Assembly (NCBI GenBank): GCA_900470155.1
Contig: UBZT01000001.1
Location: 62,001-126,000 of the forward strand
From: Hyphomicrobiales bacterium
GTDB taxonomy: Bacteria > Pseudomonadota > Alphaproteobacteria > Rhizobiales > Rhizobiaceae
Direction of reading: 5' to 3'
Length of the DNA stretch: 64,000 bases
The notes under the pieces were generated by a model. The model did not search any database. It was not told the origin of the DNA and saw nothing but the letters and a program-made list of their open reading frames with translations. Below, one piece after another: positions 39,687-43,705 of the stretch; the stretch's first letter is position 1; each line of letters opens with the position of its first letter. A program made the translations under genes and the position numbers.

Positions 39687-41015
39687 TCATCCGCCGTTGT
39701 GTGGGACGCCCAGCGACACCTTCAGACCCCCCATCGATGACCGGCTGAAGCGCATGGATCCGCCATAAGCCTCCAGCACATCCTGCGAAATCGCCAGGCC
39801 GAGGCCGGAGCCGGGATCCTTGTCGTCGAGATGCACGCCACGCCCGGCAATGCCCGACAGCGCTTCCTCGACAACACCCTCGCCGTCATCCTCGACATCG
39901 ATCAGCAGATGTTCGTCCTCGATGCGACCGGTCACCTGGATGACGGTTGCGGCAAACCGCGTGGCATTGTCCAGCACATTGCCGAGCGCCTCGGCCAGGT
40001 CCGCGGGGTCCATGTCGACGGTCAGGGCCTCATCGACTTCAATGCGCCAGTCGATCCCGCGATGCTCCGTCACCGGTTTCAGCACCGACACCAGCTTGCC
40101 GACCAGCGCCGCCAGTTCGGTGACCGCCATCTGCTCGACGCCGAGCCGTGCCGACTGCAATTGCCGGTCGGCGCGCTGGCGGATCAGGTCGATCTGCTGG
40201 CGGGCGAGATCACGCTGGGCTCCGGCCAAATTGTCGGCCAGTTGCAAAAGCACGGTGAGCGGCGTCTTCAGGCCATGGGCCAGGTCGCTCGCCCTTGCGC
40301 GCGCCCGCTCGATCGCCGTTTCACGCTCGCGCAGCAGATGATTGAGTTCGCCGACAAGAGGACGAAGCTCCCGCGGCCCGCCTTCCTTCACCGCCCGGCT
40401 CAAGCCGGAGCGCACCAGCGCGACATCGGACTGAAGGCTGGCGAGCGGCGCCAGGCCAATGCCGATCTGCAGGAAGGCCGCCGCGACCAGCACCGCCGCC
40501 GTCAGCGCCAGCATGAAGGCGATGGCGCTGTGATAATCGAGCAGGGCATCGTCCATCACCGAGCGATCGAAGGCTGCCAGCAGGGTGAAATTGCGCGAGC
40601 CGTCCGGCTCCTCCACCAGAATGCGGCGGCTATGGACCAAAAGTTCGGCACCGTCCGGCCCTTCGGTGGCGCTGAAGCCATAATCACCGGGAACAAGCGC
40701 TGCGACCGGTATTTCCAGGTCCCAGAGCGAGCGCGAGCGGAAGACCTCGCCGCGCTCCGAGACGATCTGCCAATACAGCCCGCTGCCCGGCAGGTCGAAA
40801 CGCGGATCAGCCGGCTTTCGCACCAGTACGGCCTTGGCGTTTTTCAACTCAAGGCCCGCGGCCAACTGGTCGATCACCGCGGACATGTCGGTGCGGTAAC
40901 GTTCGGCGACATAGTCGGAAAAAATGCGGCTGAGGCCGAAGCCGACCAGCAACAGGATGAGGACCACGGCCACCATGGCTCCGATGACGAGACGAAGCCG
41001 CAGCGACTGCATCAT
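39687..41015 (-). CDS. Sensor histidine kinase, PhoQ-like
   Basis: A 442-residue membrane kinase. Two hydrophobic segments (about 8-28 and 164-188) flank a periplasmic sensor domain of about 130 residues. The phosphoacceptor is His247 in DLAHGLKTPLTVLL; the N box (GNVLDNATRFA) and G box (GSGLGLAIS) follow. The ATG overlaps the response regulator stop (ATGA). The periplasmic domain is close to two exported acidic proteins encoded upstream, which could be its input; FeuQ-type kinases use a small periplasmic inhibitor in this way, but the match here is only analogy. Confidence 0.93.
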   Translation of the reverse strand: MMQSLRLRLVIGAMVAVVLILLLVGFGLSRIFSDYVAERYRTDMSAVIDQLAAGLELKNAKAVLVRKPADPRFDLPGSGLYWQIVSERGEVFRSRSLWDLEIPVAALVPGDYGFSATEGPDGAELLVHSRRILVEEPDGSRNFTLLAAFDRSVMDDALLDYHSAIAFMLALTAAVLVAAAFLQIGIGLAPLASLQSDVALVRSGLSRAVKEGGPRELRPLVGELNHLLRERETAIERARARASDLAHGLKTPLTVLLQLADNLAGAQRDLARQQIDLIRQRADRQLQSARLGVEQMAVTELAALVGKLVSVLKPVTEHRGIDWRIEVDEALTVDMDPADLAEALGNVLDNATRFAATVIQVTGRIEDEHLLIDVEDDGEGVVEEALSGIAGRGVHLDDKDPGSGLGLAISQDVLEAYGGSMRFSRSSMGGLKVSLGVPHNGG

Positions 41016-41677
41016 GGCTTGTCATCCAGCAGCACATAACCAAAACCACGGCGTGTCTCGATCGCATCGGCATCGGTCTTGCGGCGAATGCGGGCGATCA
41101 TCGCCTCGACGGCATTCTTGGCCTGGTCATCGTCGCGGCCCTGTACATGGCGGGCGATCTGCAAAGGATCGAAGACGCGGCCCGGCTCGGCGATCATCAG
41201 GGCCAGAAGGCGAAATTCCAGCGGCGTCAATTCCAGCGCCTGTCCGTCATAGGTCACCCGCCGGGCCAGGTCGTCGAGTACGAACCGGCCGGCCGTCACC
41301 ACGGACTTCGGCCGTCCGCCGGCGCGACGCAACAGGGCGCGCAACCGCGCGATCAGTTCCTCGCTGCGAAACGGCTTGGGCAGATAGTCGTCGGCACCGG
41401 CATCGAAGCCGTCAACCCGCTCCATCCATGAACCGCGCGCCGTCAGCACCAGGATCGGGGTGTCGAGACCAGCCGCGCGCCAGCGCTTGAGAATGGACAG
41501 GCCATCCATGCCCGGCAGGCCGAGATCGAGAATGATGGCGTTGTAGTCTCCCGTCTCGCCTTCGGCCCAGACCTCAGGTCCGCTGGTCAGGTGCTCGACG
41601 ATGAAACCTTCGGCCTCCAGCTTGGTGCGCGTGTGTTCGGCAATGCCCAGATCATCTTCGGCGAGCAGGAGACGCAT
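41012..41677 (-). CDS. OmpR/PhoB-family response regulator
   Basis: A 221-residue response regulator. The receiver domain (1-115) has acidic pocket residues Asp8/Asp9, phosphoacceptor Asp51 (ILDLGLPGMDG), Thr79 and Lys101 (YLPKPF). The C-terminal winged helix contains LTPLEFRLLALM and ETRRGFGYVL. It is three bases downstream of the PepSY-tail acidic protein gene and overlaps the kinase start, so the three genes form one operon. Confidence 0.95.
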   Translation of the reverse strand: MRLLLAEDDLGIAEHTRTKLEAEGFIVEHLTSGPEVWAEGETGDYNAIILDLGLPGMDGLSILKRWRAAGLDTPILVLTARGSWMERVDGFDAGADDYLPKPFRSEELIARLRALLRRAGGRPKSVVTAGRFVLDDLARRVTYDGQALELTPLEFRLLALMIAEPGRVFDPLQIARHVQGRDDDQAKNAVEAMIARIRRKTDADAIETRRGFGYVLLDDKP

Positions 41678-41680
41678 GCA

Positions 41681-42184
41681 TCACCACCCAAATGCCGAGA
41701 GCTTGCGGCCCGTCTCGGCATTTAGCCTCAGGCTGCGCACGCTGCCCTTGGCACTCTCGACCTTGAGGGCATAATAAGGCGTGCGGGCCTCGAGGTTGAG
41801 ATCAACCGATATCACCCGTCCCGCCTTCATCTCGTCGACCTTGTCGAGGATCTGGCGCAGCGACAGGATGCGCCCCTGGCGGACCGCATCGCGGGCCCGG
41901 ACATGATCGGCATCACGATTGCGGCCCTTCGAGCCGCTGCCGGAATTGTCGTCATCGTCGTCGCTGTCGTCGCCCCTGTCATCGCTGTTGCCATGTCCTG
42001 AATTGTCCGAATCGTCGCCGGAGTCATTGTCGGAATCGTCGCTGCCGCCTGACCCGCGTCCACTGCTGTCACTGCCGCTATCGCTGTCGCTGTCGTCATC
42101 AGCCCAAGCGGGGTCGGTCCGTGCCAGCACGGCCAAACCCGTGGGCAGGGTCAGCAGGAGGTGAAGGAATGCGCGACGATCCAT
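41681..42184 (-). CDS. Exported Asp/Ser-rich protein with PepSY-like tail
   Basis: The 167-residue product has a signal sequence (MDRRAFLHLLLTLPTG, Tat/Sec-like, ending PAWA), a 57-residue stretch (about 29-85) built almost only of Asp, Ser, Gly and Asn, and a C-terminal domain (about 105-165) resembling PepSY, with LRQILDKVDEMKAGRVI and YYALKVESAKG. It is the first gene of an operon with the response regulator and kinase. PepSY domains often act as periplasmic inhibitors or ligand-sensing modules. A metal-ion binding role for the acidic stretch is inferred, not shown. Confidence 0.75.
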   Translation of the reverse strand: MDRRAFLHLLLTLPTGLAVLARTDPAWADDDSDSDSGSDSSGRGSGGSDDSDNDSGDDSDNSGHGNSDDRGDDSDDDDDNSGSGSKGRNRDADHVRARDAVRQGRILSLRQILDKVDEMKAGRVISVDLNLEARTPYYALKVESAKGSVRSLRLNAETGRKLSAFGW

Positions 42185-42315
42185 GGGCTTTCTGGAGATT
42201 TCCTTGCTCTTTTGGCGCAAGCTTGAATGCAGGATTGATCCGGATGCAGGACAAGCCTGGATCCAGGACCGCGACTGCTTGAGCCTAGCGCGTGTCGGTC
42301 GGTGTTGCCACCAGC

Positions 42316-42351
42316 AAAAATGGGTTCCCCGCCCGGGGGCGCCGGGCGGGG
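42316..42351 (-). terminator. Intrinsic terminator after the acidic exported protein gene
   Basis: CCCCGCCCG (42327-42335) and CGGGCGGGG (42343-42351) form a nine-base-pair stem followed on the minus strand by a T-tract at 42320-42316. It separates the 42407 gene from the downstream operon, so the two acidic protein genes are transcribed separately. Confidence 0.7.
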
Positions 42352-42406
42352 CGAAACGGCGAAAGGGGTTGCCCGGGCGGATGGGCTTCGCGCGTTTCGA
42401 TGCCGG

Positions 42407-42970
42407 TCAACTGGCGGGGATGACCGTCACCTTGGTGAGCGTGCCCTTGGGCGCGCGAAGCTTGATCTCGGTTTGGCCGTGTTCCAGCTCGACCTCGTAG
42501 CGCAGGCGGTTGCCATTCTGGTCGACGGCCATCATCGTGCCGTTGCGAAGGCCATTGAGCTGGGCGTCACTGACAACCAGGCGCACATCATCGCGGCCCC
42601 GACCACGGCCCCGGTCGGCGCTGTCGTCATCGTCCCTGTCGTCATTGTCGTCGCTGCTGTGATGACGGCCATGATCGTCGTCACGATCATCATCGCGACT
42701 GTCATCATCGCCACCACGGCGACCGCTGCTGTCATCATCACGATCGTCATCGTTGTCGCGGTCGCTGCCGCCACGGCTGGAACTGCTGTCGTCGGACCCA
42801 TCCCGGCCGCTATCATCGGAGCCGTCATCATCGCCACCGCGGGCTTCGGCGACCGAGACGATCATCGAGGCATAGGGCGAAGGAAGCACGGCGCCGAGTG
42901 CGGGCAGGATCGTCAAGGCGACGATGGCGGTGCTGGATACCAGCAGGGCTCTACGCAAAAGACAGGTCAT
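42407..42970 (-). CDS. Exported, extremely Asp-rich protein
   Basis: The 187-residue protein has a signal peptide (about 1-43, leading to VAEARGG), then about 85 residues (46-128) composed nearly entirely of Asp, Arg, Ser and Gly, and a C-terminal globular part (about 130-187; LVVSDAQLNGLRNGT). I do not recognise a family for the tail, although the beta-rich pattern could be PepSY-like. It lies upstream of, and on the same strand as, the acidic PepSY gene and two-component system. Mixed Asp and Arg/Lys blocks could bind cations or nucleic acids. Confidence 0.72.
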   Translation of the reverse strand: MTCLLRRALLVSSTAIVALTILPALGAVLPSPYASMIVSVAEARGGDDDGSDDSGRDGSDDSSSSRGGSDRDNDDDRDDDSSGRRGGDDDSRDDDRDDDHGRHHSSDDNDDRDDDDSADRGRGRGRDDVRLVVSDAQLNGLRNGTMMAVDQNGNRLRYEVELEHGQTEIKLRAPKGTLTKVTVIPAS

Positions 42971-43118
42971 TGTTATTCTCCGTGTTGCACATCCATCGTT
43001 TGGATGACTGCAGTGTGCATCACGGCGCCTGACAGGATGCCCGCACGGCTTGTCAGCAAGCTGTCAGAAAAGGCGCGACTTCTGGCCGGCCGGGCCGGCT
43101 GCCGAAACAGCGGCCATG

Positions 43119-43142
43119 AAAAAAGCCGCCCGATGGGCGGCT
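43119..43142 (-). terminator. Intrinsic terminator after infC
   Basis: AGCCGCCC and GGGCGGCT pair perfectly around GAT, followed on the minus strand by six T. It lies 27 bases past the infC stop. Confidence 0.85.
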
Positions 43143-43168
43143 GATTTCGGCGTCTTGTGTTCAGGCAA

Positions 43169-43705
43169 TCACTTCGGGGCCAGAACCATCATCATCTGGC
43201 GGCCTTCGAGCTTCGGCTCGGCTTCGACCTTGGCAATCGCCACGGTGTCTTCCTTGACCTGAAGCAGAAGCTTCATGCCGAGTTCCTGGTGGGCCATTTC
43301 ACGGCCGCGGAACTTCAGGGTCACCTTGACCTTGTCGCCCTCTTCAAAGAATCGGTTCATCGCCTTCATCTTCACCTCATAGTCATGGGTGTCGATATTG
43401 GGGCGCATCTTGATTTCCTTGACCTCAACGATCTTCTGCTTCTTGCGCGCTTCAGCTGCCTTCTTCTGGTTGGCATATTTCAGCTTGCCGAGATCGAGGA
43501 TCTTGCAGACCGGAGGCTCCGCATTCGGGGAAATCTCGACCAGATCCAGTCCGGCCTCTTCCGCCATTCGAAGCGCTTGATCCGTCGCCACGACGCCGAG
43601 GTTCTGGCCCTCGTCATCAATCAACTGGACTTTAGGAACGCGAATTTCTCGATTGGAGCGCGGCCCATCCTTTACGGGGGCATCGGTTTTGAACGGTCTG
43701 CGGAT
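43169..43705 (-). CDS. infC: Translation initiation factor IF-3, ATC start
   Basis: A 178-residue IF-3. The N-terminal domain includes [20 protein letters not shown], the linker [15 protein letters not shown], and the C-terminal domain ends [11 protein letters not shown]. No ATG, GTG or TTG lies at the expected N-terminus; the family sequence [20 protein letters not shown] begins right after an ATC at 43705-43703, which is preceded by AAGGAG at nine bases. A rare AUU/AUC-type start is a known feature of infC, used for autoregulation through codon discrimination by IF-3. The gene is isolated from rpmI-rplT. Confidence 0.93.

Follow-up and report, generated by a model that had tools for sequence, protein, structure and literature searches.

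Why should two exported proteins, each built around a long tract of aspartate residues, be encoded beside a two-component system (TCS) in the gap between infC and rpmI-rplT? The question is posed by a 64,000-nucleotide stretch of DNA from a Hyphomicrobiales bacterium of the Rhizobiaceae (assembly GCA_900470155.1, contig UBZT01000001.1, positions 62,001 to 126,000), hereafter the window, which lies on contig 17 of a 5.48-Mb genome (G000). Its minus strand has the gene order ACT-PEP-RR-HK, coding for an exported acidic protein (ACT), an exported protein with a PepSY domain (PEP), an OmpR-type response regulator (RR), and a PhoQ-like histidine kinase (HK). An earlier reading, made from the nucleotide sequence alone (the sequence-only reading), had described the two Asp-rich exported proteins, the regulator and kinase alongside, and their insertion between infC and rpmI-rplT; the open reading frames (ORFs), their tracts, and the gene order are all confirmed (Table 1). 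Here, we report that, among relatives of this locus, the two tracts change in charge in concert.

Charge of the two Asp tracts evolves together

A six-frame scan of the window for at least 15 Asp per 50 residues returned only the tracts of ACT and PEP, with maxima of 26 and 21. We rejected simple DNA repeats as their source, as tandem-repeat signals in the window are weak (best score 51) and the Asp codons are mixed, with 20 GAC and 18 GAT in ACT, and 19 GAC and 11 GAT in PEP. Among relatives, the tract sequences do not align and their residues are not conserved in position; pooled across these loci, Asp outnumbers Glu by 1291:45 in the ACT tracts and by 888:63 in the PEP tracts.

Comparison of the two tracts across 38 loci showed that their contents of Asp (Spearman 0.70), Arg (0.83), His (0.69), Ser (0.54), and Gly (0.47) are correlated, as is net charge (0.70), with values of 0.30 or less for Glu, Asn, Lys, and Thr. 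Independent contrasts on a tree of RR and HK gave r values of 0.65 for Asp, 0.76 for net charge, and 0.15 for Asn (37 contrasts), with a permutation p of ~1e-4 for net charge, and a set of 41 loci (adding the window and two more, and leaving out G273) gave Spearman values of 0.70 and 0.68. Individual loci illustrate the pattern: both tracts of G058 are near-neutral and Gly/Ser-rich, whereas both tracts of its sister G268 are of Asp/Gly/His; both are weakly charged in locus L096, and both lean to Glu/Gly in G273. The Asp fraction does not follow local GC content. The net charge density of the ACT and PEP tracts evolves together.

Conservation of the four-gene set

A search with the PEP tail matched 49 of the 60 genomes of the genus, 31 of them strongly (E 1.5e-19 or better). 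The ACT domain profile matched 29 of the 60, all of them among these 31, and the remaining two strong-PEP loci (G201 and G167) are truncated by contig ends ahead of ACT. The order infC-ACT-PEP-RR-HK-rpmI is found at 28 loci of the genus besides the window, and also in G071 and G128, which belong to other genera. The sequence-only reading had staked its case on acidic genes lying next to this kinase in close relatives, and these counts bear it out, with the qualification that a second group within the genus has the kinase without ACT. Across the family, the ACT domain is present in 13 of 297 genomes and 7 of 109 genera, and it was found nowhere new credibly among 249 genomes of the order; one order-level match outside the family (G378, E 5.6e-4) was rejected, having no site of the kind described below and no acidic neighbor within its 3 kb. 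Two named records, and no others, were found with the PEP tail, Rhizobium sp. 18065 and Rhizobium sp. PDO1-076. The set sits after an unrelated gene in G233 and is not followed by rpmI in G229, and these differing surroundings indicate that ACT-PEP-RR-HK travels as a unit.

The group without ACT is a sister group of 12 loci (L107-L118) with the order infC-PEP-RR-HK-rpmI (one locus is cut within RR), in which the PEP linker is Gly/Pro-rich with a net charge of -8 to +1 over 74 residues. G107 has RR and HK at the locus, with no detectable ACT or PEP there. In the RR tree (48 rows, midpoint root; L099 and L101 were left ungrouped, their ACT genes being found later), the ACT-less group and G107 are nested in the ACT-bearing clade with supports of 94/84 and 90/86, neither of them starred, and because of this position it is likely that ACT was lost together with tract charge in the ACT-less group.

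A predicted response-regulator site upstream of ACT

All 30 aligned ACT genes (28 in the genus, plus G071 and G128) are preceded by a predicted response-regulator site, a CTGACA direct repeat followed by an inverted CTGTCAG, with no mismatch in 14, one in 12, and two in four, of 19 positions scored. It lies 51-101 bp from the chosen ACT start. Since every one of these genes carries the site, ACT is probably RR's own target, activated by it. The exact CTGACA-N5-CTGACA repeat occurs once in the 5.48 Mb of G000, at ACT, and 19 times with one mismatch allowed, compared with 10 for a read-backwards control, which weakens the idea of a wide regulon built on the half-site. With the 39-bp form and up to one mismatch, 23 of the 297 family genomes match and none match with the read-backwards control. 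The first loci of these 23 comprise 10 that precede an ACT-type gene (G000, G158, G274, G071, G212, G327, G211, G326, G268, and G128), four that precede a plain PepSY-RR-HK set (G290, G229 on contig C1, G061, and G264), and nine others that include a cytochrome b561-like neighbor (G053) and chance-like places; for G298 and G221, no PepSY-RR-HK set was recognized alongside.

There is variation in the form of the site. The ACT loci of G229 (contig C8), G233, and G058 have one, two, and two mismatches, respectively, and in G273 the direct repeat is exact but TTGTCAG stands one base closer, so that a fixed-spacing scan scores seven mismatches; in other genera, the site often forms a near-perfect palindrome of four half-sites. 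Of the 12 ACT-less loci, 11 have the exact direct repeat between infC and PEP, just after infC and 150-582 bp upstream of the first ATG in the PEP frame, with GTCAG and TGTCAG-like inverted half-sites following one base nearer. Because these loci keep a near-identical site before PEP, the predicted site goes with the RR-HK locus rather than with ACT alone. Its three settings, before ACT, before plain PepSY-RR-HK sets, and before PEP where ACT is missing, bear on the question of an RR-driven module.

Among 20 sites in relatives that do not precede ACT, six lie before what we take to be a c556-type cytochrome gene, three by a presumably tctC-like gene, six at one common place, and five are scattered. 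In the c556-type cases (L177, L179, L183, L184, L187, L188, and L232-L248), CTGACA-N5-CTGACA is ~170 bp upstream of the gene, often with a third repeat, and in part of the genus the next gene is also cytochrome c-like. The c556-type gene is matched in 59 of the 60 genus genomes. Thirty of its loci were sampled, and five, including that of G000, were dropped for lack of a start; of the 25 scored, 16 in ACT-bearing genomes have the site (up to one mismatch) and four do not, and in genomes without ACT the numbers are two and three, the two being G159 and G201, the latter possibly lacking ACT because its contig ends there. The half-site pair also precedes tctC-like genes in L190, L191, and L193, and with one mismatch in G000 itself (L137, C17:20788), which points to recognition of almost this sequence by a TctD-type regulator. 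The common place, in six genomes (L176, L181, L182, L185, L186, and L189), is conserved and divergent from a membrane sensor-like gene. In G061 (L209/L228), a palindromic site has the PepSY-RR-HK set on one side and, on the other, a divergent gene for a small exported protein followed by a cytochrome b561-like gene.

PEP and related PepSY modules

The sequence-only reading had seen a PepSY-like tail in PEP, and this is supported through its relatives. The window tail alone scores 15.7 bits against PF03413 (cut-off 24, E 0.02), but 13 of 19 profile rows, the window row included, match at E 0.1 or better, and the PEP profile, which includes paralogues, matches a solved PepSY protein at E 1.8e-15. 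The best Foldseek hit to the domain model is YpmB (TM 0.65, probability 1.00, E 0.057), with UipA third at an unfavorable rmsd (10.3); none of the Foldseek E values is below 0.001. PEP thus belongs to PepSY (PF03413) by family profile and fold, not by the window tail alone. A twin-arginine-like motif ahead of the hydrophobic stretch is found in 36 of 40 PEPs with acidic tracts versus 3 of 17 other PepSY proteins, and we presume from this motif that PEP is exported by the Tat pathway. The PepSY domain is basic (mean net +6.8 in the 40 acidic-tract proteins) and the HK sensor is acidic (mean net -7.8 for loci L067-L098, with 16 kinases scored among the 32, and -5.0 and -5.4 in other groups of four and seven kinases).

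Genes for PepSY proteins are reported to lie near TCS genes >60 times more often than expected by chance, and in Vibrio cholerae the gene for the PepSY protein DbfQ precedes dbfR-dbfS, with DbfQ binding reported to shift DbfS toward phosphatase activity (PMC12714742). This widespread module has the layout of PEP-RR-HK, a small exported PepSY protein directly upstream of an OmpR-type regulator and then a kinase, although DbfQ is a 135-aa protein with a single PepSY domain, and the available part of that source mentions neither a tract of Asp nor a partner of the ACT type nor a 39-bp site (PMC12714742). In the set described here, the PepSY-domain protein, with export judged from its N-terminus, likewise lies within four genes of RR and HK, and by its anatomy PEP-RR-HK is a DbfQRS-like module, not FeuNPQ. 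In Pseudomonas aeruginosa, BqsS, the kinase of a PepSY-TCS locus (BqsRS/CarRS), senses Fe2+ (PMC12666569), and as in our set two exported proteins (PA2658 and PA2659) are encoded upstream of the TCS; both of those partners are termed PepSY proteins (PMC12714742), whereas ACT has no detectable PepSY similarity. The PepSY proteins UipA and LanP bind uranyl/iron and lanthanides, respectively (PMC8963506, PMC11845868). Like PEP, they are exported or membrane-anchored, but as described there they have two PepSY domains and bind metals through acidic residues on the fold, whereas PEP has a separate, presumably disordered Asp tract. Among the literature matches listed, which give partial coverage, no title concerns the ACT-PEP-RR-HK set or Asp-tract PepSY proteins.

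The sequence-only reading had instead proposed control as in FeuPQ, by a small periplasmic protein encoded next door. The anatomy fits, in that FeuNPQ likewise pairs a small periplasmic protein restraining a kinase with an OmpR-type regulator; the attribution to FeuPQ does not stand, as a paralogous FeuNPQ-like locus is found elsewhere in G000 (contig C41, L219) and the closest published mechanism that we found is DbfQRS. The C41 locus has a small exported ORF, an HK, and an RR 41.6% identical to that of the window, which falls outside the window clade on a long branch of the RR tree and is not its ortholog. We take the small ORF to be FeuN from its position. Comparison of this ORF with the PEP profile by hhalign detected no resemblance (probability 0.6%), and we rejected it as a PEP relative.

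Gene calls, the ACT domain, and transcription units

RR starts 3 nt downstream of PEP, and RR and HK overlap by 4 nt. The two RR domains and HATPase_c exceed Pfam cut-offs, with the HisKA domain of HK just under its cut-off; the receiver Asp and the H-box His (Table 1) were assigned by reading the sequence, and export of ACT and PEP was judged from their hydrophobic N-termini. PhoQ is the best NCBIfam model for HK, at a sub-threshold 131.5 bits (cut-off 497), and QseB and PmrA are the best for RR, both far under cut-off; with PhoP at 130.7 bits (cut-off 336), the pair does not belong to PhoPQ by these curated models. A long ORF opposite ACT (42302-43144, plus strand) is probably not a gene, because its Val/Ile-rich reading is what reversed Asp codons give.

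Table 1. Positions of genes, domains, and predicted elements of the locus, in window coordinates
Feature	Position	Strand	Remarks
infC	43169-43624	-	flank of the gene set
Terminator-like hairpin after infC	43124-43142	-	pattern scan; sets the cassette apart from infC
Predicted response-regulator site upstream of ACT	43029-43067	-	CTGACA-N5-CTGACA-N15-CTGTCAG; exact match; 39 bp
ACT, exported acidic protein	42407-42970	-	ORF, 187 aa; hydrophobic N-terminus, Asp tract, and 62-aa conserved C-terminal domain; family profile A1
Asp tract of ACT	42602-42844	-	81 aa cut by script; 34 Asp, 0 Glu, net -21
ACT C-terminal domain, predicted small beta-rich fold	42410-42595	-	AlphaFold2: strand-helix-4 strands
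GC-rich hairpin in the ACT-PEP gap, resembling a terminator or attenuator	42327-42351	-	fold z -3.4
PEP, exported protein	41681-42184	-	ORF, 167 aa; twin-arginine-like N-terminus, Asp tract, PepSY domain
Asp tract of PEP	41912-42094	-	61 aa cut by script; 21 Asp, 0 Glu, net -16
PepSY domain of PEP	41684-41920	-	AlphaFold2 pLDDT 86; Foldseek rank 1 YpmB
RR, OmpR/PhoB-type response regulator	41012-41677	-	221 aa; Response_reg and Trans_reg_C; receiver Asp51
HK, PhoQ-like histidine kinase with periplasmic sensor domain	39687-41015	-	442 aa; HATPase_c; His247 in H-box

The C-terminal domain of ACT, modeled with a pLDDT of 71 and pTM of 0.46 from three near-identical sequences, is more elusive. The sequence-only reading had looked to domain profiles to place this tail, and no curated family matched: Pfam gave scattered weak matches (TOBE_2 in 2 of 17 rows, best 3.9e-4; DUF5959 in 4 of 17, best 0.0045), searches of PDB sequences gave nothing significant (E 0.57 or worse), and neither did Foldseek with the model (E 0.11 or worse). 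A diverged PepSY domain was rejected by hhalign comparison with the PEP/PepSY profile (1.9%). The ACT counterpart in G084 (L099) lacks the domain and has a long Asp tract followed by a His/Gly-rich tail, which hints at metal binding.

A terminator pattern scan listed four sites in the region, compared with 3.1 expected by chance, and since this count is near chance the argument for the hairpin after infC is its position. In relatives, this hairpin type, CCCCG(C/T)CCG, recurs as the longest of the ACT-PEP gap at 26 of 30 loci, with C-G pairs exchanged for T-A, a count made without a shuffle control. The corresponding window hairpin may terminate transcription, although its T-run begins ~6 nt past the stem and it is absent from the sites listed by the terminator scan. 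ACT is probably under its own promoter and not simply part of a PEP-RR-HK operon.

A possible mechanism and its alternatives

We propose that the four genes form an envelope-sensing set, in which a DbfQ-type periplasmic regulator is joined by a charge-matched, autoregulated polyanion partner that handles cations, and we give this reading an even chance. By analogy with DbfQ, the PepSY domain of PEP would bind the periplasmic domain of HK, to which it is complementary in charge, and bias it toward the inactive (phosphatase) state, until a signal lifts this hold. Phosphorylated RR would then bind the 39-bp site, as its conservation suggests, and switch on ACT, which would be exported in quantity because it stands before the hairpin with PEP-RR-HK behind. 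The two tracts would be disordered polyanions with a ligand in common, for which divalent or polyvalent cations are the likeliest candidates (Ca, Mg, Fe, or cationic peptides), and their charges would evolve together because the ligand is shared. The PEP tract would sense it, and ACT, made after activation, would titrate the same ligand and so reset the system. A cation ligand is plausible in light of the metal binders UipA and LanP and the Fe2+-sensing BqsS. That ACT and PEP work as one cation-handling part of the sensor is suggested because relatives keep the pair together and the tract charges rise and fall together. The bolder claim, that cation sensing has moved from the kinase into two disordered polyanions, one on the PepSY brake and one the output of the pathway, competing for the same ions with their charges kept matched, seems to us somewhat unlikely; if true, the system would sense charge balance, with feedback by self-titration, and would do so through low-complexity tracts that co-evolve and not through a folded binding site.

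Several observations weigh against this proposal. Neutral-linker versions exist in the same RR-HK clade and the site is also present without ACT, and the core circuit can therefore do without the tract and without ACT; the ACT proteins of G268 and G084 have no C-terminal domain. The PepSY domain is equally basic beside neutral linkers (+9 in L101, +7 in L112-L117), and we rejected the idea that its charge is tuned to its own tract (Spearman -0.44 among 57 PepSY proteins), as these same-clade relatives argue that PepSY charge follows clade, not tract. Arg, Ser, and PEP Gly track local GC to some degree, and a genome-wide preference for certain low-complexity residues could give correlated tracts, the control being for local GC only. 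Each gene also has somewhat longer exact words in common with its own partner than with most other partners (14.5 versus 12.7 nt, mean rank 0.24); gene conversion between ACT and PEP is made less probable, but no more than that, by Asp codon choice, which is uncorrelated between the two (Spearman -0.02, n=37). As for the site, the half-site pair alone is unspecific, with at least one exact copy in 52 of the 60 genus genomes; it precedes the c556-type gene in G159, which has no ACT or PEP matches, and the copy before the tctC-like gene is probably read by a paralogue.

The neutral linkers also speak for another explanation, in which the tracts merely space the signal peptide flexibly from the domain, with drifting composition, and control of the kinase falls to the PepSY domain alone; the same clade's linkers of Gly/Ser, Gly/Pro, or Gly/Asn (L101, L102, and L111-L117) and the lack of positional conservation are what it predicts, but the strong bias to Asp over Glu, the co-evolving charge density of two separate proteins, and the retention of the ACT tract in G268 and G084, where the domain is missing, are not, and we think it rather unlikely. 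The sequence-only reading's view of both acidic proteins as FeuN-type brakes on a kinase responding to metals or antimicrobial cations has in its favor the best fit of HK to PhoQ, albeit under cut-off, and the direct binding and restraint of FeuQ by FeuN reported in PMC12486126. Against this stand the separate FeuNPQ-like locus of G000, whose small protein the PEP profile does not match, and ACT itself, which is apparently under its own RR-type site and hence an output, making this explanation improbable. We regard it as very improbable that PEP and ACT serve in the periplasm as chaperones or inhibitors of peptidases, released when the envelope is stressed and kept soluble by their acidic tracts; the conserved set has no peptidase gene, a weak point given that systematic annotation covered seven queried genes only.

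Implications

Low-complexity exported proteins are usually ignored, since they do not align. Here it is the composition, and not the sequence, of two separate proteins that co-evolves, and this gives a testable handle on tract function. If the proposed envelope-sensing set is correct, the PepSY-kinase modules described recently would gain a second component, one that is autoregulated. ACT and PEP are candidate metal-binding polymers and candidate players in envelope sensing by the Rhizobiaceae.

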